Shown here: one piece after another, positions 10,424-26,091 of the stretch
How the letters are laid out: every line of letters begins with the position of its first letter
How positions within the stretch are numbered: position 1 is the first letter of the stretch
Assembly: GCA_029247205.1 (NCBI GenBank)
Contig: JAQWLT010000025.1
Location: 1 to 64,000 of the forward strand
DNA: 64,000 bases
Direction of reading: 5' to 3'
DNA from: Phycisphaerales bacterium
Lineage (GTDB): Bacteria; Planctomycetota; Phycisphaerae; Phycisphaerales; SM1A02
The notes under the pieces: model-generated
What the model was told of the DNA's origin: nothing
The model's input: the letters and a program-made list of their open reading frames with translations, nothing else
Database searches by the model: none
Position numbers and translations under genes: made by a program

Positions 10424-11827
10424 CTACCGCGTTTTTGCAAGGAAGCGAACAAGGCCGCCTGCAGGCGCATCAGGAACAAGTTCACCCACTCCACTAATCG
10501 CCGCAGCCGCGAGATATCCACTTCGCACTGCCCCTTCCATCGTGGCTGGCCACCCACTGCGACACCAGTCTCCTGCAAGATAAAGGCCTTCAATATCGCC
10601 GCCCTGTGGGCCAACCGGACTTGGCGAAGCAGACGGACGAGAAGACTCGGCCTCCATCGTGGCAGCGAACGTAGCACGACGTTCCTTGACTGGCCGACAC
10701 AACAGAACCGACGCCTGCCGACTGCTTGGATACGCCGCGTGAATGTCGCTCAGAACAGCATCGCGTATATCGTCTGGCGAACGACCCATCCACTCATCAG
10801 CGGCACTGATTACCGCATGTAAGTGCTGGGATCCGTCGGCATCAATGCCCTTACGGAAGATCCAATGCACGCCACGACCTGGCAGTACCAGGTGTGGCTC
10901 ATCCATGACCACTCGATCAAACACAATGTGCACGCCCAAGATTGCGCTATGCCCGAGGGCTGAGAGGTCGCCGAGACGCGCATCGGTATCTCGATCTGCA
11001 TCCGTGAGAATGGCGTCCAGACGCTCCCATGGCAAGGCAGATAGCACAACATCAGCTCGTACAAATTCATCTTTGGTCTGCACACCGATCACACGACGAT
11101 GTTCAATTCCAATCGAGGTCGCGGTGCATCCAAACCGAACCTCCCCACCGGCCTGACAAATGATATCTGCTGCAGGGGCGTATAAGTCGGCGAGTGGAAT
11201 CGCTGGCACCCCCATCGTTGAATGCCAGGCGCCAGCGAGAAAACCATCTTGGAATACCTGCACAGCATGTACGGCAGCGACACGTTCGAGTGAAAGGTTG
11301 CATGCACTGAGAATAATCGGTTCCCAAAAAAGCTTGCGGACTTGCGTATCTTGGCCCCATTGATCAAGCAGATTTGAAAAGTTTTGATTTCTAAGTGTCA
11401 ACCTTCCAGACACGCCCATCCGAAGCATACGCCACATGGCGCGTCGTACTTGTCGCTTCATCGATCGATCAAGGAGCCGCATACGCCGAAGCGACCCAGC
11501 CATATGAAACGGAGCAGGTAGCCGACTCGCCCGCATGACATCACGTCCACCATCAGGCCTCAACCAATGTGTCTGGGAGTACCACTCAATTGAATCTTCA
11601 ACACCAAGCCGAGCGTAGAAGTCAAGTAAGTTGGTGCAACAACCCATTAACACATGCTGGCAATTATCTAGTGTCCGCCCGGTCGACACGTCCTCAAAGC
11701 TTGAAGCTCGCCCACCAAGCCGTCGCCGCGATTCGAGCACGATCACAGACCAGCCAGCATCCGCCAAACGAAGCGAGGCAGCTAAGCCAGCGAGACCACC
11801 GCCGAGTACGACAACTTTCCCATTCAC
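10424..11827 (-). CDS. hpnE: Hydroxysqualene dehydroxylase
   Basis: A 467-residue FAD-dependent amine oxidase-fold enzyme that reduces hydroxysqualene to squalene. The N-terminus has the dinucleotide-binding VVLGGGLAGLAASLRLADAG and the glycine pair LGGRASSF. NCQHVLMGCC, with FYARLG after it, is the HpnE signature that separates it from carotene desaturases. The C-terminal FAD contact reads YLAGDWCRSGWPATMEGA. It is the last gene of an hpnC-hpnD-hpnE operon and overlaps hpnD by four bases (ATGA). No squalene cyclase is in the window, so the fate of squalene (hopanoids, sterols or C30 carotenoids) cannot be read here. Confidence 0.93.
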   Translation of the reverse strand: MNGKVVVLGGGLAGLAASLRLADAGWSVIVLESRRRLGGRASSFEDVSTGRTLDNCQHVLMGCCTNLLDFYARLGVEDSIEWYSQTHWLRPDGGRDVMRASRLPAPFHMAGSLRRMRLLDRSMKRQVRRAMWRMLRMGVSGRLTLRNQNFSNLLDQWGQDTQVRKLFWEPIILSACNLSLERVAAVHAVQVFQDGFLAGAWHSTMGVPAIPLADLYAPAADIICQAGGEVRFGCTATSIGIEHRRVIGVQTKDEFVRADVVLSALPWERLDAILTDADRDTDARLGDLSALGHSAILGVHIVFDRVVMDEPHLVLPGRGVHWIFRKGIDADGSQHLHAVISAADEWMGRSPDDIRDAVLSDIHAAYPSSRQASVLLCRPVKERRATFAATMEAESSRPSASPSPVGPQGGDIEGLYLAGDWCRSGWPATMEGAVRSGYLAAAAISGVGELVPDAPAGGLVRFLAKTR

Positions 11828-12696
11828 GAGGATGCCCGTCCGGCAAACAACGCAATGCGAATCTTCTTCAACTTCGACAGCGATACGCCTGGAATGCCAC
11901 AGCAGCGCCGTGGATCCTGTTCAATCTTCTCAAGCATCGCATGATAGATTCCAGTCATCGCACGAAGCGTTCGCCTGCAGTCCGCAGACACCATGGCATC
12001 AAGCGGTTGAGACTGCTCATAATGAGACGATGCGACATCAATCCAGTGGCGAATAAGTGCATGGCAGGCTTCTGGTCGGCGCCATGCAATGAGAGAAGCT
12101 TGATCGAGCCCCCGCGCCCGCAGGTCGCTCGCGGGGATATAGCACCGCCCCACAGCCGCGTCCTCGCCGACATCGCGCAAGATATTGGTCAGTTGCAGCG
12201 CAATACCACGCTTCACAGCCAACCCAGCTGCGGCGGGGTCGTCAAAGCCCCAGATGCTGATACAGAGAAGCCCAACTGTTGACGCCACACACTCGCAGTA
12301 GTCAAAAAGATCTTCACTGGACTCAATCACTCTGCCCGAAAGGTCGTCGCGCTGACCGCGGATCATGTCAATAAATGGTTGCCGCGGAAGATTCCAAGAA
12401 GATGCGGCCCACGACAGAGCTTGCCAAATAGGCTCATCCGGGACGGATCCGCCATCGAGCACTTCTAGAGTTGTGCGCTCAAATGCACCGAGTGCTTGAA
12501 TCGCTGTGGCGGGGTCATCAGCATCATCTGTGATGTCGTCAGCCCGCCGCATCCACGCATACAAGGCGTACAAGCCAGAACGACGCGGCTCGGGTAGCAG
12601 CCGAAGCCCCCAATAGAAGTTCCCAGCTCGGCGTCGCACGAGCAGCCTGCACCAGTTCAACGCTTCAGTCGGCTCGACTGTCATCATGGTACCCAT
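11824..12696 (-). CDS. hpnD: Presqualene diphosphate synthase
   Basis: Condenses two farnesyl diphosphates to presqualene diphosphate. The start at ATG 12696 overlaps the hpnC stop as TGATG and gives a 290-residue protein of normal length; the longer ORF runs into hpnC. The first Asp-rich motif is RRADDITDDADD (about residues 50-61) and the second is LTNILRDVGEDAAVGRCYIP, both typical of trans-isoprenyl diphosphate head-to-head synthases. YALYAWMRR and the C-terminal LSKLKKIRIAL are HpnD-like. It is the middle gene of the squalene operon, and probably translationally coupled to both neighbours. Confidence 0.93.
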   Translation of the reverse strand: MGTMMTVEPTEALNWCRLLVRRRAGNFYWGLRLLPEPRRSGLYALYAWMRRADDITDDADDPATAIQALGAFERTTLEVLDGGSVPDEPIWQALSWAASSWNLPRQPFIDMIRGQRDDLSGRVIESSEDLFDYCECVASTVGLLCISIWGFDDPAAAGLAVKRGIALQLTNILRDVGEDAAVGRCYIPASDLRARGLDQASLIAWRRPEACHALIRHWIDVASSHYEQSQPLDAMVSADCRRTLRAMTGIYHAMLEKIEQDPRRCCGIPGVSLSKLKKIRIALFAGRASS

Positions 12697-13634
12697 CAAC
12701 TCACTCGCCCCTGCCGAGATGCCCGAAGTGCAAGCCATGCCTTCTGGAACTTCGACATAGAGACCCTGTACAGCACTGTTTCATAATCGGACCTTGCAAT
12801 GAGATTGAGAATTGCTTGCCCCCCTGCTGCAAAGAGCCAAAGCATAGGTCGAACATCCGCTGAAACCGAAGCAAGCAATGGATCAATCTGTCTGAGCAAC
12901 GGAGATGTTCGCTCAAGAAGCGATCGCATGACGCCACGATAGATCTCAAGGAATTCTTGATCAGGCGCATGTCCATTTGTCGCAGTTTGTATGAGACGAC
13001 TCTGAAAGTCAGGCTCATCGGTCATTTCGTGCGGAATGTAGATTCGATCTCGCTCGACAATGTCTCTACGGACGTCCTGCCAGTGGTTGGCGAGTTGGAG
13101 ACCCGTACACACCGCGTCACTCATCTTTAGCTGCTTCTGGTCCATGGACGACCCCGCAAGTTGAAGCACTATCCGCCCCACGGGATCGGCGCTGCCACGG
13201 CAATAACCGAAGAGTTCATCCCAAGTGGCATAGCGACTGACTCGTTGATCCTGCTCGAATGCATCCAGCAAATGGTAAAAGGGAGAAGGATCTAGCGCGT
13301 GTCGTGTCAACACAGAACCGAGCGCTACAAACACTGGATGTCGAGAATCGCCGGCAACACATGCGTTCAGTTCCTCTCGCCACCATGCCAGTCGCTCCAG
13401 TGCTAAATCTTGATCCCCCGACTCATCAGAGAGATCGTCTGCCCACCTGCAATAGGCATAGACAGCGGATACCCCGTCTCTCATCCGATCTGGGACGAAC
13501 CGACTCAAGACGCTAAAATTCTCATATTGGCCGAGCGTCAGGCGCCGGCAATAGGCAATCGCGTCCTCAAGCCCAAGCGACTCGCATCGCTCAGGCCCCC
13601 ACTGTTCCAACTTGTCGATGATCTCGCTGCCCAT
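12696..13634 (-). CDS. hpnC: Hydroxysqualene synthase
   Basis: Converts presqualene diphosphate to hydroxysqualene. The 312-residue protein shows the HpnC-specific YCRRLTLGQYENFSV near residue 28, the first Asp motif CRWADDLSDESGD and the second LANHWQDVRRDIVERDRIYIP, where HWQD replaces the ILRD of HpnD. It heads the hpnCDE operon. It starts 72 bases from the divergent ispH gene, so the precursor and squalene branches of isoprenoid synthesis share one intergenic control region. No Shine-Dalgarno is evident at ATG 13634. Confidence 0.92.
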   Translation of the reverse strand: MGSEIIDKLEQWGPERCESLGLEDAIAYCRRLTLGQYENFSVLSRFVPDRMRDGVSAVYAYCRWADDLSDESGDQDLALERLAWWREELNACVAGDSRHPVFVALGSVLTRHALDPSPFYHLLDAFEQDQRVSRYATWDELFGYCRGSADPVGRIVLQLAGSSMDQKQLKMSDAVCTGLQLANHWQDVRRDIVERDRIYIPHEMTDEPDFQSRLIQTATNGHAPDQEFLEIYRGVMRSLLERTSPLLRQIDPLLASVSADVRPMLWLFAAGGQAILNLIARSDYETVLYRVSMSKFQKAWLALRASRQGRVS

Positions 13635-13705
13635 GGCGGGCTGCAGGCTATCATGGGGGACTATTCATGTGGCGGGCCACGGCGGCTCGAACAACAGGAG
13701 AAGGC

Positions 13706-14764
13706 ATGCGAATCTTGCTAGCCAACCCACGCGGCTTCTGTGCTGGGGTCTACATGGCGATCGATGTGGTCGAGCAATTGCTTGACTTCGTGAGCGATGA
13801 GTCAATCTACGTCTATCACGAAATTGTCCACAACAAGTATGTGGTGCAACGATTCATCGATCGGGGAGTCATCTTTGTCGAATCTATTGAGGACGTCCCA
13901 AGCGGATCGATTCTCGTCTTCAGCGCCCACGGCGTGAGCCCTGCCGTTCGGAAAGCGGCAGAACATCGATGCCTCATCGCCATCGATGCAACCTGCCCGC
14001 TGGTCACCAAGGTGCACGCCGAAGCCATTCGATACGCCAATCGAGGCTGGCAGATCTTGCTCGTGGGCCACACCGACCATCAGGAAATCATCGGCACCCG
14101 TGGCGAAGCACCAGATTCGATTCAGGTCGTTGATTCTGTAGAAGCCATCAGCACACTTCAAATTGATGACCCAACAAAGCTTATCTATCTCACGCAAACA
14201 ACACTGAGCATGGATGACGCATCGATCATTATTCGCGCACTCCGAGCAGCCTTTCCAGACATACACGAACCACCAAGCGATGATATTTGCTACGCCACCA
14301 CGAATCGCCAATTGGCTGTTCGCCAGTTAGCGACTGATTGCGATTTGGTCATCGTCGTGGGCTCTCGCAACAGTTCAAACTCACAACGGCTGCGTGAACT
14401 CGCCGAAACCACTGGCACACGTGCTGTTCTGATCGATGACAAGAAGGAGCTGACACCAAACATGCTGTCCGGCATCGAGACAGTTCTTGTGACAGCTGGC
14501 GCAAGCGCCCCCGAAGATCTTGTCCAAGATCTCCTACTGCACCTGATCAATATCTCTGGCGGCAAAGTTGAACAGCATGATGTGTTCAATGAAACCATCG
14601 AGTTCGGGCTTCCTGGCACACTCAAAAAGTTCATGCGGACGAGAGGGGTCGACCCAGAAGGGCGACGTATTACCATGGACAATATTTCCGCAACTGAAAA
14701 GTTCTTAGCTGACAACAACATTGATCATCAAGTCATTGACGTCACCATTGGCGCATCCTCTTGA
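13706..14764 (+). CDS. ispH: 4-hydroxy-3-methylbut-2-enyl diphosphate reductase
   Basis: Last enzyme of the non-mevalonate (MEP) pathway, making IPP and DMAPP with a [4Fe-4S] cluster. The start at 13706 has AGGAG five bases upstream; the earlier ORF start does not. All three cluster cysteines are visible: NPRGFCAGV, DATCPLV and DDICYATTNRQ. YHEIVHNKYVV and VFSAHGVSP carry the conserved active-site histidines, and TQTTLSMDD and VVGSRNSSNS carry substrate-binding residues. The protein is 352 residues, slightly longer than E. coli IspH. It overlaps rlmN by four bases (TTGA). Confidence 0.96.
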   Translation: MRILLANPRGFCAGVYMAIDVVEQLLDFVSDESIYVYHEIVHNKYVVQRFIDRGVIFVESIEDVPSGSILVFSAHGVSPAVRKAAEHRCLIAIDATCPLVTKVHAEAIRYANRGWQILLVGHTDHQEIIGTRGEAPDSIQVVDSVEAISTLQIDDPTKLIYLTQTTLSMDDASIIIRALRAAFPDIHEPPSDDICYATTNRQLAVRQLATDCDLVIVVGSRNSSNSQRLRELAETTGTRAVLIDDKKELTPNMLSGIETVLVTAGASAPEDLVQDLLLHLINISGGKVEQHDVFNETIEFGLPGTLKKFMRTRGVDPEGRRITMDNISATEKFLADNNIDHQVIDVTIGASS

Positions 14765-15835: not shown

Positions 15836-18800
15836 TCAGGCCTCGCGTAACTTACGAATTTCACGCCGGAAGGCGGCAGGGCTAATGCGGCGAAGTCGGC
15901 CATCGAGCGCGATGGTATGCAACCACTCCAAAATTACCCGCCACTGTTCATACTGATCTTCACTGGCGCTCGCTGCCTGCATCACGACTTCCTGTACTTG
16001 ATCCCTGACAAGCCGCTGAGGTCGCTTGCCACGAAGTCGATGGGGCAGCACCCATCGCATTGCTGCTAAGACATGGGCCATCCAGTCGCTCGAGCGTAGA
16101 TCCACGCGAACTCGCCAACGAACCATGGTGCACTCAAGTCGAGTGAGATACCGAATAGACAGCACATCACTCCGTGCGCGCCGCACATTCAATCGCTGCC
16201 GCGTCTGTCGTCGATGCTCGCTGCCGATGGCCATCGATGCAACGTAAATTGGATCTCGGATAAGCAATGACTCGGCGAGTGGTAGCACTGCAGCCCTCGT
16301 CAACGCTCGGCCTGTCTCACCGCGGTCTGCCTTGTAAAGAGAAATAATACGATCCGCAAATCGCTCGGCAAGATCAAAGCCTCCCCATGTCACACAACGG
16401 CGAAGGGCTACGATGAAATCTCTGTGCGCATCACGACCAGGCCCAGTCTCAAGCAAACCAGGAACCTCGCCCAGTGCACGCTTAACCAAACGACGAAATC
16501 GATCGGCTCGGTCAGGACCAGACATCCTCATCTTGGCGAGCATGAGTCTGTATCTTCGAACAGACCGATCGCTCGGTTCAATTGGCCTTTCCTGCGGACG
16601 AAGTAATCGCTCTGGATCGAGCAAGGCCGCTCGGCCGTACTCAAAGGCCTCCCTCAAACGCGCCACCCCAACCGACTCTATGCGTTGCAAGGCCTGATGC
16701 ATGGCGTCAAGCGAGAGTGGGACTGCTCCAGATTGCCACGCCAGACCAAGCAACACCATGTCCGCGAGCCGCTCATTGTGAAAGCGATATCGGCAAACAC
16801 CAGTGATATCTGCCGTCACAACATGAGACTCACCACCAATTTGTAGCAGGTGCGCACCAATCGCTTCACCTTCGTCCTCAGGATCTTCAACTCGCTCGAT
16901 TTCATCTTCAAATACACCAGTATTCGCAAATACGAAAGTGCGGCCGCGAGAAACTACGCGTAGTGGCAGATCGGGGTCAACTGCATCAATCGTGGCGCCA
17001 CGGTCATACCCAAGCAAGAGCCCAGCTTCGCCCCATGGAATGACCGGCGGCACGGCAGCCTCTTCACTGTCATCTCGTGGCCGCGAGAATGCAATCTGAG
17101 CAAATGATCGCCTGCCGGGGCCAATTGATGTGGGATCTGCGCGGACCTCAACGTGATAGCCCATCACCATAGCCGCTTCTTGAAGCACACGGCCCACTAC
17201 GCCAGGAGTCATTCCTCGCAATCCAGCCAGATGCGCATACCACACCGGTTGATCGGCGTGCTGAAATTCGGGTTGTCCCGGCGACTCCTCAACTCCAGTT
17301 CCTCTCGTAGGAGCTTGCGTGCGGTGTACTTCAATCTGCTCTACCAGCGGGCGAATTCGACCACCCATATGCGGCGGCCATCGCAGCGGAATGGTTTCAA
17401 CCGCAATAGTGGAACGGCTTGATACCGCTTCATGCACTGCACGCTGATCACGTCGCCTCAGTGTTGGCGGCTGACGAATCACACAGGCACGATCTGCTGG
17501 CCACACCAGGCGTTGGCCAGTCTGATAGCCCACGCGGTCGATCTCTTCGACCCCTCGCTCCAGGGTCGCCACATCAAATCGAGCGGGTGGGCCATCCTCA
17601 ACAATCAAAACAGTGAGTCCCATTCCGGCTGCGGCGGCGTGTACATGACGAGTTACTTCTGCTGGCCCGGCGTTCTCGGGGCGATGTAGTCGCACACCCG
17701 CGCTACGCTCGGCTGGGATAACGGCCCGCACCAAACGTTCAATATCAGCCCCCGCTGGCGATGGACCTGCTGCAATCACGATCAACCACGCACCGCCGTC
17801 CGCGGAAGCTTGTCTGATCGCCGCCGCCCCACTGCGGCGAAACTCCGTACCACGCCACACTTCAGCAACAACTCGTCGCCCCTCGGCTGGACCTATACGC
17901 TCACCACCAAAGATCCACTGCAACGGGTCGGAATGTTCTCCTTCGGCCCGATCATCTTCTGGCTCAATCGACTCGAGTACAGCGGCATGAAGCGTCTGAT
18001 GCAAGTCCTCAGCCTGCCCTCGATCACCGAAAGGTGCCTTCGCCTGCCGCGACGAACAAGGCGACAGTGGTTCACTCAGCCGATCAGTCAATGGCGGGCC
18101 GGCCATGACCCGTTGTATCAGCGGAGCAAGCACCCGCGCGAGCGGGGATGGATGTGTCAAATGACTCAGCGAGTTTCCATCGGGAAGTTCGTGTCCCCAT
18201 ACAGCTGCAGGCGATTGCCCATCCATGATGAGACGCTGCGCGATGCCAGACACCACCAGTTCGATTCGTTGGCCGACTGGCTCAAGCACTACAACTGTCT
18301 CGCATCTCAACAACACTCGTTCGATTGCGGCGGCATCAAGCGGATTTGAAACCGCTAGATGCAGCGTCGGCACCCTGCCCTCTACACCAAGAATGACTTC
18401 AATACGACGCATGGATCGTTCGACTGGTCCTACCACAATGAATCCGATCGCCGAACGTTCTCCAGGACTTGGCATTGCTCGCACAGCGTTGAGTTCGAGC
18501 CGGCGAGCAATTCGTAGTGGACCACCAACTTCATCCCAGCGAAGCCCACGCCGACGAGGGGGGCCGGCAGGCGGACCAACGCCAACTCGGTTAGGCAAGA
18601 CCCGAATACTGGCCATCGATTGCAAAATCTGGCGATTGACAAGCATGACAGCGGGCACACGCGACGCGCGGCTGAGCCGAAGCGTATGCTCGATTGAATC
18701 GCGAACATCTGTGACCGACGTTGCTTCGAGCATCGGCAAACCAGCAGTTGCAAGACGTTGTCGCAAGCCTGGCCGTGTCCCCGGATCTTCTAATACAACC

Positions 18801-19177
18801 GCTAAAGCTTCCGTGTCTTGAAAGAGTTGTTCTCCACTTCGTTCAAGCTCTCGCACTGCAGAAGTGACCGTCGGACCTGTTGCCATAGCTACAACATGCC
18901 GTCCCTCTCGCGTGTCCCAGCGGGCCATTTCAAGAGCCCGGCCAGCATCATCGACTACACGGTCGACCAATCGATGTCGTCGCATGAGATCTCGAATCTC
19001 AGGAAGGCGAAGAGCATCTTGCAGTGTTCGAGACACGCGACTCTCGGTCATAATGAATCGCGACACTGCCACTTCTTGTTCGAGCACACCCTTCAGCACT
19101 GCTTCACATGCAGACATCATCGCCACGCCGTCGTGGCGCTGCAATGGATGCCCCACTTGTTCGCTGCCTCCGTTCAT
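15836..19177 (-). CDS. Giant degenerate indolepyruvate/2-oxoacid:ferredoxin oxidoreductase-like protein
   Basis: A 1113-residue protein whose domain order resembles fused IorA-IorB enzymes. Residues about 80-200 look like the pyrimidine-binding domain (EALAVVLEDPGTRPGLR, then GLPMLEATSVTDVRDSI and RVPAVMLVNRQ). A middle segment resembles the TPP domain region. Residues about 650-850 resemble the gamma domain (LAGLRGMTPGVVGRVLQEAA, SFAQIAFSRP, ADITGVCRYRFHNERLADMVLLG). The C-terminus resembles the helical DUF6537-like end. However, I find no TPP-binding GDGxxN motif and no CxxCxxC ferredoxin cluster. Catalysis is therefore doubtful; a scaffold or divergent enzyme is possible. It overlaps the upstream HAD gene by ATGA. 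Confidence 0.55.
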   Translation of the reverse strand: MNGGSEQVGHPLQRHDGVAMMSACEAVLKGVLEQEVAVSRFIMTESRVSRTLQDALRLPEIRDLMRRHRLVDRVVDDAGRALEMARWDTREGRHVVAMATGPTVTSAVRELERSGEQLFQDTEALAVVLEDPGTRPGLRQRLATAGLPMLEATSVTDVRDSIEHTLRLSRASRVPAVMLVNRQILQSMASIRVLPNRVGVGPPAGPPRRRGLRWDEVGGPLRIARRLELNAVRAMPSPGERSAIGFIVVGPVERSMRRIEVILGVEGRVPTLHLAVSNPLDAAAIERVLLRCETVVVLEPVGQRIELVVSGIAQRLIMDGQSPAAVWGHELPDGNSLSHLTHPSPLARVLAPLIQRVMAGPPLTDRLSEPLSPCSSRQAKAPFGDRGQAEDLHQTLHAAVLESIEPEDDRAEGEHSDPLQWIFGGERIGPAEGRRVVAEVWRGTEFRRSGAAAIRQASADGGAWLIVIAAGPSPAGADIERLVRAVIPAERSAGVRLHRPENAGPAEVTRHVHAAAAGMGLTVLIVEDGPPARFDVATLERGVEEIDRVGYQTGQRLVWPADRACVIRQPPTLRRRDQRAVHEAVSSRSTIAVETIPLRWPPHMGGRIRPLVEQIEVHRTQAPTRGTGVEESPGQPEFQHADQPVWYAHLAGLRGMTPGVVGRVLQEAAMVMGYHVEVRADPTSIGPGRRSFAQIAFSRPRDDSEEAAVPPVIPWGEAGLLLGYDRGATIDAVDPDLPLRVVSRGRTFVFANTGVFEDEIERVEDPEDEGEAIGAHLLQIGGESHVVTADITGVCRYRFHNERLADMVLLGLAWQSGAVPLSLDAMHQALQRIESVGVARLREAFEYGRAALLDPERLLRPQERPIEPSDRSVRRYRLMLAKMRMSGPDRADRFRRLVKRALGEVPGLLETGPGRDAHRDFIVALRRCVTWGGFDLAERFADRIISLYKADRGETGRALTRAAVLPLAESLLIRDPIYVASMAIGSEHRRQTRQRLNVRRARSDVLSIRYLTRLECTMVRWRVRVDLRSSDWMAHVLAAMRWVLPHRLRGKRPQRLVRDQVQEVVMQAASASEDQYEQWRVILEWLHTIALDGRLRRISPAAFRREIRKLREA

Positions 19178-20064
19178 AGACGCGTGCCTCCCAACAAAAG
19201 CCTTCCATCCAAAAGGTCATGTATCAGATCTGCAACACCATCATGATGGTGCGATCCAGTCGTCGCATCGGAAACAGCCAAGACACGATGGTCCGCATTC
19301 TCAACGGCAACGCCAAGTCCGCACCGATCAATCAGCACGATATCATTCACACCATCACCAACTGCCGCAGTTCGTCCACAATCCACACCTCGCATTTTGC
19401 AAAGTTTTTTGAGCATTGTCCACTTGTCGGAGTCTGGATGGAAGACCTCAAGCAGGTGCACTACGGAGCCCGCTTTGGAAGAACTGGTAACCGCCTCCCA
19501 GTGCCGCGCATGAACGGCTGAGCCAAGCGAATGCTGGACATCAACAACCATCGGCTCGCACTCCTCTGGTGTTCCGGCAGCACCAATCCTGACCGTGTCG
19601 TCAGGAAATGGATCCTCCTCTATGCAATCAACCCGAGTAAAAGTGGCCGAAGTGGCTTCGAACCACCAGTCAGAGACTGGATGCATCGGCTGACGACCGA
19701 CAACTACATAGTCGACCCCACCGGTTTGAGCGCGGTCCTTAAGCAGCATCGGAACAGCGTTACGACGCAGCACGCTCCTGGCAATGATCGCAACGTCGGA
19801 ATACGGGATAACATGCCGGTCAAGGGTCTGCCCAACTCTCACATCAAGGAGCAAAGCGCCACTTGCTGCAATAAGCGGTCCATCGTAAGAAATAGCATCC
19901 AGAATCTCACCACACTCGCTGGCCGTTCGGCCAGTTGCGATGACACAGGGCAAATCCTCAGAGGCGGCCCGCTGCATTGCTTCAATATTGGCGCGAGAAA
20001 CCGTTCCGTCAGCGCTCAGCAGCGTTCCGTCGAGGTCGATCGCGAGCAAGTCGGGACGCCCCAT
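19174..20064 (-). CDS. HAD-superfamily (Cof-type, class IIB) phosphatase
   Basis: Starts at ATG 20064 (296 residues); a TTG three codons upstream is the alternative. HAD motif I is LLAIDLDGTLLS, motif II the CVIATGR strand, and motif IV AVGDGVNDIVLID, with the Cof-type cap between them. These enzymes dephosphorylate sugar phosphates, nucleotides or cofactors such as FMN and PLP; the substrate cannot be read from sequence. It is transcribed just ahead of, and overlaps, the giant oxidoreductase-like gene, so the two probably form an operon of unknown purpose. Confidence 0.85.
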   Translation of the reverse strand: MGRPDLLAIDLDGTLLSADGTVSRANIEAMQRAASEDLPCVIATGRTASECGEILDAISYDGPLIAASGALLLDVRVGQTLDRHVIPYSDVAIIARSVLRRNAVPMLLKDRAQTGGVDYVVVGRQPMHPVSDWWFEATSATFTRVDCIEEDPFPDDTVRIGAAGTPEECEPMVVDVQHSLGSAVHARHWEAVTSSSKAGSVVHLLEVFHPDSDKWTMLKKLCKMRGVDCGRTAAVGDGVNDIVLIDRCGLGVAVENADHRVLAVSDATTGSHHHDGVADLIHDLLDGRLLLGGTRL

Positions 20065-20165
20065 GTCCCTCAAGGTAACAGGCCAGCGGTCACCGTGACT
20101 TGAAGTGTCGATACGACCGGCGTACCGTCCTTGTGCCCAAAGATACCCCTTGACGCTGAATACTC

Positions 20166-22029: not shown

Positions 22030-23141
22030 CCGAGCAGCAGGGCCCGATTCGGCCCGGCGGCGCCGTCGATCCGGAATTAATACCCACAGAAGATGGGCCA
22101 GCCCACGTCACGTTCACACTTTCGCGTGATCTCAACAAACGGCTCGACCGCTATCTCGGCGATCGCATTCCTTGGCTCAGTCGGACTTCATTGCAACGTC
22201 TCATTCGGGAGGCTGCGGTAACTGTCAACGGACGCCACCCAAAGGCCTCAACAAAGCTCCGAAAGGGAGACGTCGTTGATGTCGTCCTTCCGCCCCCCCC
22301 AAGTTCAGACTTGCCAGCCGAAGAGATTCCCATCAACATTATTCATGAAGACCCTGCACTGCTCATTATCGACAAGCACGACGACATCATTGTGCACCCA
22401 GCAAGAGGTAATCAGTCGGGCACCATTATCAATGGGCTTGCATGGCACTTTCAACAGTCAGGCAGCGGAAGCCTGAGCGAAGTCGGCGCCGAGCAGGCTC
22501 GACCAGGCGTTGTACACCGACTTGATCGACACACAACCGGTGTCATGGTTGTCGCCAAGACAGAAACCGCTCACTGGAGAATTGGCAAACAGTTCGAGGA
22601 GCGACGCACAAAAAAACGGTACGTCGCACTCGTCCACGGCAACGTCGAGCCTGTTGCTGATTTGATCGATCTTCCACTTGGCAAACACCCCACTATCAAA
22701 CACTGCAATGCAGTACGCTGGGATGAAACCGGAAAATCAGCCATCACGCTCTATCGAGTGCTCGAAGGATACGGCGACTTTACGCTTCTTGAAGTCGAGT
22801 TACGCACCGGCCGAACCCACCAGATTCGCGTACACCTCTCACACCTCGGATGGCCTATTGCAGGTGATGACATGTACGGCGGAAAGCACGTAGAAGTGCG
22901 TGATGTATTGAGCCCTGATCGAAGCGAAGGTGATCGCCGCCGCATATTGCTCGGCCGCCAAGGACTGCATGCCGCTTTACTCGGGTTTACCCATCCGACT
23001 ACTGACAAACCAGTGGAGTATCGCGCACCCCTGCCAGCTGACATCAGAGGATTGATTCAGATCTTGCGTGATCGCGGGCCTGTGCATCGCCCCACCGTCA
23101 CCGGACAAGTGCTCGATGTGGACGAGCTCATGGAGACGTAG
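22026..23141 (+). CDS. rluD: RluD-family 23S rRNA pseudouridine synthase
   Basis: A 371-residue protein: S4 RNA-binding domain at about residues 35-95 (LDRYLGDRIPWLSRTSLQRLIREAAVTVNG, read in parts), then the RluA/RluD catalytic domain with HRLDRHTTGVMVVAKT holding the catalytic Asp, KRYVALVHG and RTGRTHQIRVHLSHLG. RluD makes pseudouridines in helix 69 of 23S rRNA; RluC or RluA specificity cannot be excluded. It begins at GTG 22026, coupled to the upstream gene, and its 3' end overlaps the convergent thioredoxin-fold gene by 14 bases. Confidence 0.9.
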   Translation: MTEQQGPIRPGGAVDPELIPTEDGPAHVTFTLSRDLNKRLDRYLGDRIPWLSRTSLQRLIREAAVTVNGRHPKASTKLRKGDVVDVVLPPPPSSDLPAEEIPINIIHEDPALLIIDKHDDIIVHPARGNQSGTIINGLAWHFQQSGSGSLSEVGAEQARPGVVHRLDRHTTGVMVVAKTETAHWRIGKQFEERRTKKRYVALVHGNVEPVADLIDLPLGKHPTIKHCNAVRWDETGKSAITLYRVLEGYGDFTLLEVELRTGRTHQIRVHLSHLGWPIAGDDMYGGKHVEVRDVLSPDRSEGDRRRILLGRQGLHAALLGFTHPTTDKPVEYRAPLPADIRGLIQILRDRGPVHRPTVTGQVLDVDELMET

Positions 23142-24423
23142 CAGGACTTTTTTGCAGCAGCGACTCAATCTTCGTCCTGACCTTCTTATCCATCTCCGGC
23201 AAAAAACCAGTCCATTTTTCAGCAACGGTACCGTCAGGCGAAATCAGTACTTGAGTCGGCAACGTCGTGATGCCCCATGCAGTCTGCACTGCAGCGGCTG
23301 GGCTCACAAGGGTCGGTATCGACAGTCTGCCTGCTGCCCAATACCGACTCGCCAATTCGGTGCGTTGCTCGAGACCTTCCACCCGCTCCATCACATTAAC
23401 TCCGTATACCTTTACTTGGCCTTCTCCAGCACCCGTGGCCTGAAAAACTTTGTCCATCTGCACGAGAGAACGCTGACAAGCCTTTGCCCATGTTGTCCAA
23501 AAGCAGAGCAATACAACATCACCCTTGAGTTCAGCAAGATCGACCACATCTCCCTGTAAGTCGGACAGCCGAAGCGGCGGCGCCACTTGCCCAGCAAATA
23601 TCCGATTGCGATCGATTGGGTCGAGTTGCCATCGCTCAGTCACGGGAAGCCGCTCACCAGGGTCAAATGTAATTGGCTCTGGAAGCACGTCAACAAATTG
23701 AGTGTCGGTTTCTAACTTCATAGTCCAGACCACTGGCGGCGCCCCATGTTCGACCTGAACTTTCATCGTAGCCTCGGCTGAGACAATTTTATTCTCAACA
23801 ATATGAATCGATCCCTGACCCATTGGCCCCCCAAGAAGTACTCGATGATGGGAACGTCCGTCCTCCGAATCGATGACTTCAAGCCCAGTAATCGTGGGCT
23901 CGCCGATTGCTCGCATCATCACCATGTCAAGCCACAGTTCTGGTGGCGCAGCCTCTCGCATCATCACTTCAAAACCGGCAACGAAGGGATTGCCGTACAC
24001 ACCCTCGAGCCCCGTTGATATCCCCTGCCCCAACGGCACGCGGATGTACCGATCGTAGATCGCGTGATCAAGCACGTTGAGCCATCCATCTGTCGCAACA
24101 ATGATCGAGCCGAGGCTCTTGATGACTGCTTCTCCATCGGGGCCAAAGACAGACTCAACCGTCAGCTCATTCGTGCTCCCGAGCGACTCTGTCTTTACCG
24201 TCGTACTGCATATGACTACCGGAGCATCATGAAATGCCTGTGCAACTTGAACCAACATTCCTCGTGCTTCATCAACAATGGCCTGATCAGCCGGCTCGAC
24301 TGACGGCTGTGGAATGGGCTGTATTTGCGAGGGATCGACCGACTGAGCACAAATCGACGAACTCAGAGCAGCGGCCGCCAGCAGGGCAGCCACAAAGACG
24401 CTGGGATGAGGAGTTATTTTCAT
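23128..24423 (-). CDS. Secreted TlpA-like thioredoxin-fold protein with a single active-site Cys
   Basis: 431 residues with a signal peptide (VFVAALLAAAALSSSICAQS). Residues about 50-280 form a domain of unknown family, similar in layout to lipoprotein-carrier-like (DUF2092-type) folds. The C-terminal 150 residues are TlpA/AhpC-TSA-like: GQVAPPLRLSDLQGDVVDLAELKG, FWTTWAKACQRSLVQM, a PTLVS strand, and cis-Pro in ITTLPTQVLI followed by SPDGTVAEKW. The expected WCxxC is WAKAC, so only the second Cys remains, ruling out a standard dithiol mechanism. It probably acts in the periplasm. The gene lies just downstream of the repeat-bounded segment starting at 24464. Confidence 0.8.
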   Translation of the reverse strand: MKITPHPSVFVAALLAAAALSSSICAQSVDPSQIQPIPQPSVEPADQAIVDEARGMLVQVAQAFHDAPVVICSTTVKTESLGSTNELTVESVFGPDGEAVIKSLGSIIVATDGWLNVLDHAIYDRYIRVPLGQGISTGLEGVYGNPFVAGFEVMMREAAPPELWLDMVMMRAIGEPTITGLEVIDSEDGRSHHRVLLGGPMGQGSIHIVENKIVSAEATMKVQVEHGAPPVVWTMKLETDTQFVDVLPEPITFDPGERLPVTERWQLDPIDRNRIFAGQVAPPLRLSDLQGDVVDLAELKGDVVLLCFWTTWAKACQRSLVQMDKVFQATGAGEGQVKVYGVNVMERVEGLEQRTELASRYWAAGRLSIPTLVSPAAAVQTAWGITTLPTQVLISPDGTVAEKWTGFLPEMDKKVRTKIESLLQKSPATSP

Positions 24424-24660: not shown

Positions 24661-26091
24661 TCAGGGTGCCATGGGGTAGTGGGCGTTCCAGATCGAAAGT
24701 AGGTTCAGGAGGTCGTGGATCTCGACCACACCGTTGAAGTTCGTGTCATGCGGTCCCGTGTCTAGTGTCCTATGCATTTCAGCGAGATCAAAGGGGTCGA
24801 TGAGGCCGTCGCCGTTGAGGTCTCCGGCAAGGACGTACGGAGGTTGCTTCGGAGAGCAACCACTTCCGCATGTCGTCCCCGAGGAGAGGCATGGCGCAGT
24901 ACTGCCTGCCCAAGTGTTGCCCTTGGCGAAGCAGTGGTAGCTGCTGAAATCATTGATCATGAAGTAGGCGTCCGGATCGAAACCGGCGTACGCCCCGGCC
25001 TTGGCCATCGCGTTGGTGCACTCGGTCATGACGTCGTTCAAGTACTGAATCCTTTTTACGGGATTGCTGTTGTAGCCAGCGGCATACATGAGGAAGCCGA
25101 AGGAAGTCTTGCGGCAGTCCGGTCCAATCGATGAGTCGGTGCCGGCTTCGATTCCGAGGCTGACGGTCTTGGTGGCGCTGATAGATCGAGCCTTCTTCAG
25201 AACCTTGTACGCGAAGAACGCCATTCCGTCTGAACCGGCGGGAGTGTCTCCGGTGCAGTCCGCCGCACTGATCGGGCAGCACACCGGCTTGGCGGGGTCG
25301 CAATTCCCTGATTTTAGGCAGTTGGCGGTGCGGTAGGCAAGCAGTGCCGTGCGATCGATGTAGTGCAGCAGGCACTCCCAGCAATCGACCTCGCTGCCGC
25401 CGACCTCCGGGCAGGGGACTTTGATGGTGTCCGCGGGCATGCCGGCGAGAGGAACCATGGTGCCGATGGTCAGGCTTGCTCCCAGCGTGGCCCTGGCATT
25501 CGGATTTCCCTGGTTGTGGGTATCGATGCGACTCCGGGCTGTCTTGAGGACCTGCTGGAGCGCCACCATGTTTGCCTTGATGGCGGACTCGCTGCCGTCG
25601 AGATCCGGTTCGAGGTCAAGAAATATTTCTATCGTTGGTTGGCCACCGGACTTGTTGGTGGTCCATGACGTGGCGCCGGAGAAGTCGGTGCTGCTCAGCA
25701 TTAGAAGAAATCGGCTCACGTTGCACAGGATGTCTGCAGTGTTGGCGTGGGTGAATTTCAGCACCGAGTACATCACTGAAAATCTGTGGCCGGCTCCGTC
25801 TACTTTGTTGATGTAGGCGTAGAAATCCGCGAAGGTACTTGCACCACCAATGCAGCCTCCATGAATGGACGCCCCGTCCTGGACGATCCTTCCCTGTTTG
25901 AGAGACGGATCGGGGCCACTGTCCATGAATGCCAGAAGATCATCCTGCAGCATTGCCGACTGCGTGCCCTCGATGATGTCCTGGCTCCATACGAACAGTC
26001 CTGTCTTCTCGGTGGCGGCTTCTGCAGTTTCTGTGCTGGTAATCAGGTGGATGCCGATTAAAAATGCAATTGCAAGCCGTTGTAATTTCAT
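24661..26091 (-). CDS. Secreted TIM-barrel-like protein with dockerin-like C-terminus
   Basis: 476 residues starting with a signal peptide (RLAIAFLIGIHLITSTETAEA). The body has barrel-like beta-strand endings reminiscent of glycoside hydrolases: IFLDLEPDLDG, TALLAYR, VSLGIEAG and FDPDAYFMINDFSSYHC. A Cys-rich insert sits at about 265-300. I cannot name a GH family, and hydrolase activity is inference. The tail LAGDLNGDGLIDPFDLAEM, with a second DTNFNGVVEIHDLL loop, is a dockerin-like domain of the type seen on the lipoprotein at 6970. The gene lies inside a segment bounded by 54-bp direct repeats, so it may have arrived or been duplicated separately from its neighbours. Confidence 0.65.
   Translation of the reverse strand: MKLQRLAIAFLIGIHLITSTETAEAATEKTGLFVWSQDIIEGTQSAMLQDDLLAFMDSGPDPSLKQGRIVQDGASIHGGCIGGASTFADFYAYINKVDGAGHRFSVMYSVLKFTHANTADILCNVSRFLLMLSSTDFSGATSWTTNKSGGQPTIEIFLDLEPDLDGSESAIKANMVALQQVLKTARSRIDTHNQGNPNARATLGASLTIGTMVPLAGMPADTIKVPCPEVGGSEVDCWECLLHYIDRTALLAYRTANCLKSGNCDPAKPVCCPISAADCTGDTPAGSDGMAFFAYKVLKKARSISATKTVSLGIEAGTDSSIGPDCRKTSFGFLMYAAGYNSNPVKRIQYLNDVMTECTNAMAKAGAYAGFDPDAYFMINDFSSYHCFAKGNTWAGSTAPCLSSGTTCGSGCSPKQPPYVLAGDLNGDGLIDPFDLAEMHRTLDTGPHDTNFNGVVEIHDLLNLLSIWNAHYPMAP

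Follow-up and report, generated by a model that had tools for sequence, protein, structure and literature searches.

Introduction

The closest described systems for the protein reported here are the indolepyruvate:ferredoxin oxidoreductases (IOR), which in their fused form have the domain order Pyr, III, PP, gamma and DUF6537, and pyruvate:ferredoxin oxidoreductase (PFOR). In the catalytic enzymes the TPP site comprises a catalytic Glu of the Pyr domain and the GDG loop of the PP domain, and sets of Cys residues serve the [4Fe-4S] clusters. In full-text searches of a library of openly licensed papers we found none on DUF6537 and none that combines pseudoenzymes with IOR or ferredoxin oxidoreductases.

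We analysed a stretch of 64,000 nucleotides (the window) from a Phycisphaerales bacterium (lineage SM1A02). Its family, here called f1, is probably the SM1A02 family whose members are described as having small genomes and living in marine and freshwater habitats (PMC11266412). The window contains a gene for an IOR-like protein next to a HAD phosphatase gene (Table 1).

Table 1. The IOR-like gene with its domains and sites, and the adjacent HAD gene (positions in the window)
Feature	Position	Strand	Details and basis
Cofactor-free fused-IOR-like protein	15836..19177	minus	1113 aa, ATG start
Pyr-like domain (TPP-pyrimidine fold), residues ~1-200	18578..19177	minus	hhalign 98.6% to intact IOR; AF2 model
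Lost catalytic Glu position (E84 in canonical P0002, A78 here)	18944..18946	minus	alignment
Domain III-like segment, residues ~201-375	18053..18577	minus	hhalign 99.5%
Eroded PP domain, residues ~376-635, deletions relative to canonical IOR	17273..18052	minus	hhalign 96.1%; alignment
Former GDG Mg/TPP loop, residues 442-444 (canonical GDGTF, here RGTEF)	17846..17854	minus	alignment
C565, lone Cys at first Fe-S Cys column	17483..17485	minus	Cys in 73/84 relatives
Gamma (POR) domain, residues ~636-840	16658..17272	minus	hhalign 99.95%; Pfam POR 0.0024
R654, invariant (84/84), in place of gamma glycine-loop Gly	17216..17218	minus	alignment
G688-R689, near-invariant (82/84 and 81/84), in place of canonical RNGG motif	17111..17116	minus	alignment
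DUF6537-like C-terminal domain, residues ~841-1113	15839..16657	minus	hhalign 99.7%; several relatives above Pfam DUF6537 cut-off
Cof/HAD-IIB phosphatase, upstream neighbour	19174..20073	minus	Pfam Hydrolase_3 1e-39

Homology and fold

Judged by its sequence, the ancestor of the protein was a fused 2-oxoacid (indolepyruvate):ferredoxin oxidoreductase from planctomycetes of the order Phycisphaerales. The NCBIfam models PRK13030 and PRK13029 matched it with E=2e-19 and E=2e-16, both far under the curated cut-off (68.6 versus 816 bits for fused IOR), and the Pfam POR match is likewise sub-threshold; the fused-IOR models matched all 19 f1 proteins scanned. Profile-profile comparison with intact fused IORs gave a probability of 100% (E=1.7e-100, 1085 aligned columns), and the five domains, compared singly with hhalign, each matched intact IOR with 96-100% probability and in collinear order, giving the complete Pyr-III-PP-gamma-DUF6537 architecture of the catalytic enzyme. 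The AlphaFold model (pLDDT 85.9, pTM 0.85) has PFOR as its best PDB match (Foldseek, E=1e-12). A sequence-only reading had noticed that the domain order recalls fused IorA-IorB; fold and order are indeed kept, and the profile searches speak against its opposite case, a protein unrelated to 2-oxoacid oxidoreductases. The window protein itself did not match Pfam DUF6537 (PF20169), the cut-off of which was passed in 12 of 61 f1 genomes; the predicted DUF6537 fold (pLDDT 91) found no PDB match at E ≤0.001, and no PHROGs profile matched.

Loss of the cofactor sites

To survey the sites, 84 distinct f1 sequences were aligned with canonical and proteobacterial IORs. The catalytic Glu is present in 19/19 canonical and 5/5 proteobacterial proteins and, by the commonest letters listed, in 0/84 f1 sequences, which mostly have A, G or P in this column. 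The GDG Mg/TPP loop is kept in none of the 84 relatives and none retains any of the [4Fe-4S] Cys sets; the TPP site is gone in the window protein and throughout these relatives. Canonical Phycisphaerales and proteobacterial (L150-L154) IORs retain the catalytic Glu and the GDG loop as well as nearly all scored Cys; in this alignment the proteobacterial sequences lack Cys at two of the scored columns (C476 and C667).

Inspection of the window protein revealed exactly 7 Cys and no CxxC, where about seven had been estimated, and the absence of the GDGxxN motif and of clustered Cys noted earlier was correctly observed. The ligand sets are lost in 84/84 relatives. The possibility that the cofactor ligands had moved to shifted positions was rejected: neither the sequence nor the alignment of the 84 relatives contains any. 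With the TPP/Mg and [4Fe-4S] ligand residues lost, IOR chemistry is not to be expected and has almost certainly disappeared.

Selection and family-specific residues

Between pairs of f1 genes dN/dS was mostly 0.05-0.15, with one pair at 0.33 and two pairs in which dS was saturated. Since the same losses occur in 84 distinct relatives under such low dN/dS, they reflect neither chance nor a sequencing artefact. In addition, f1 has 24 fixed residues (≥95%) that are rare in canonical or intact IORs, and most of them are charged (among them R80, E130, E228, R287, R291, E439, D547, R654, R689, R796, R803, D806, R1028 and R1049). R80 follows the site of the vanished catalytic Glu at a distance of two residues, and R689, like R654, substitutes a gamma-loop glycine; several of the 24 fall in old cofactor loops, a pattern spotted post hoc. 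Because purifying selection is strong and new invariant residues have appeared in the family, a new role is favoured over decay and is very probable. Together with the loss of the sites, these data support the earlier proposal that the family kept the fold and lost catalysis or acquired a new role.

Distribution and phylogeny

The IOR-like gene was present in 67/67 f1 genomes sampled, including genomes of 1.8-2.0 Mb, usually as one copy; in some genomes a single gene appears in two pieces, or a contig break is present. The named relatives are from Phycisphaerales and other planctomycete MAGs. In the window genome, which is 86% complete, a search for a canonical IOR elsewhere found no intact enzyme; contig C22 carries a 2-oxoacid oxidoreductase, but it is of the Kor type. 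Strong IorA matches were found in 4 of 61 f1 genomes sampled (2 above cut-off), and in at least one of them (G175) the match co-occurs with the IOR-like protein.

Canonical fused IORs with their motifs occur in family f5, in the single f7 genome examined and in most f6 genomes examined. Three f6 proteins (L046, L139, L147) are intermediate, with catalytic Glu and all scored Cys kept and a varying GDG loop. Degenerate IOR-like proteins were also found in family f4, where one gene extends across two frames (L034:6284-10298; a possible frameshift or assembly error), and in genus g44 of family f6. Adjacent to the degenerate IOR in g44 is a fusion of E1alpha, E1beta, lipoyl and KASIII parts of about 1150 amino acids (L044, L045, L049, L136; L132-L134). 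At the g41, g50 and g55 loci this fusion occupies the KAS-flanked site that holds the IOR in other f6 genomes, and it may have replaced the IOR there.

In the rooted tree f1, f4 and g44 group together (SH-aLRT 98 and 94). The cofactor sites may have been lost once or several times: the tree has long branches, a topology that places g44 among intact IORs passes the AU test (p-AU 0.08), and a KAS neighbour is common to g44 and intact IOR loci.

Genomic context

In the window the HAD gene overlaps the IOR-like gene by 4 nucleotides (ATGA). Its product matches Hydrolase_3 and has the DxDGT and GDxxND motifs of a Cof-type HAD-IIB phosphatase, motifs that are intact in 73/73 complete matches. A HAD gene adjoins the IOR-like gene in 74 of the 77 loci with room for it (62 upstream and co-directional, 12 divergent; missing at L051, L076 and L094). 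The adjacency persists at inverted loci, and at L113/L122 despite changes in the other neighbours. RlmN, IspH and RluD are also conserved around f1 loci, and the HAD link may in part reflect a general synteny of the region. Of the coupling to a HAD phosphatase proposed in the sequence-only reading, the conserved adjacency stands; that the two proteins also function together is suggested by this genomic arrangement.

Inspection by eye of other genes in the window assigned squalene (HpnC/D/E-like) and IspH genes to positions 10424-14764, near the IOR-like gene and conserved in many f1 loci, a TlpA/redoxin-like protein to 23128-24423, with AKAC at the CxxC site and the first Cys apparently lost, and a probably secreted protein with a C-terminal dockerin-like repeat to 24661-26091.

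Proposed role

The best explanation overall, which has about the same chance of being right as wrong, is that a repurposed, cofactor-free IOR acts as a ligand-binding, non-redox partner of the HAD phosphatase. The five IOR domains have been retained, the TPP/Mg and [4Fe-4S] residues given up and new charged residues fixed, several of them in the old cofactor loops. The remodelled cleft might now bind an anionic ligand such as a CoA ester or a phosphorylated metabolite, and the protein would serve the phosphatase as sensor or scaffold. Taken by itself, the step to a ligand-binding partner of the HAD protein is plausible, although it falls somewhat short of an even chance. The wider proposal is that the scaffold of a 2-oxoacid:ferredoxin oxidoreductase was repurposed long ago and throughout the family as a cofactor-free protein, either an enzyme or a metabolite sensor, that works with a HAD phosphatase; the chances of this are evenly balanced.

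It is also possible, though on the tentative side, that the protein is a new enzyme, the old cleft having been rebuilt with invariant Arg, Glu and Asp into an active site independent of TPP and Fe-S, for example that of an acyl-CoA or phosphate-ester transferase or lyase whose substrate or product is handled by the HAD protein. Strong selection and invariant charged residues in several domains, some at former cofactor loops, would fit such an enzyme; however, it comes without a recognised catalytic motif or assigned chemistry. A protein that binds no small-molecule ligand and serves purely as a scaffold or in assembly would account for the retention of a large multi-domain fold after the loss of the cofactor sites, but charged conservation at former cofactor loops is not an obvious need of a scaffold, which makes this explanation improbable. 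That the protein is a still-active IOR receiving its cofactors from another chain is extremely unlikely: the genome does hold the Kor-type oxidoreductase, but the 84 relatives have lost both halves of the TPP site, Glu in Pyr and GDG in PP, along with the Fe-S Cys sets. A decaying pseudogene or annotation artefact, which the divergent sequence and lost motifs could suggest, is contradicted by the low dN/dS, the long frames without inner stops in matched relatives and the presence of the gene in every f1 genome sampled, and can practically be dismissed.

The protein would be a member of the PFOR superfamily that has lost all cofactor sites and has nevertheless been kept throughout an entire bacterial family, most of it uncultured. 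Automated homology assignment easily mis-annotates such proteins as IOR and counts them towards 2-oxoacid metabolism. The intermediate stages present in the order open the route from enzyme to cofactor-free protein to study.

Comparison with known systems

The degenerate proteins of f4 and g44 have the same ancestry and have likewise lost the cofactor motifs, but the f1-specific Arg residues at the gamma loops have no counterpart in them, and the neighbours in g44 differ from those in f1: the gene is preceded by a KAS gene and followed by the E1-lipoyl-KASIII fusion. With the fused IOR family (PRK13030/PRK13029) the window protein shares all five domains, their order and full-length homology, whereas the catalytic Glu, the GDG loop and the Fe-S Cys sets are absent, PP is partly deleted and the scores are far under the cut-offs. 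The pyruvate, oxalate and 2-oxoglutarate ferredoxin oxidoreductases (6cin, 5c4i, 6n2n) are alike in fold, with Foldseek E values of 1e-12 to 2e-8; their identity to the window protein is only about 10-12%, and their cofactor sites are lost in it.
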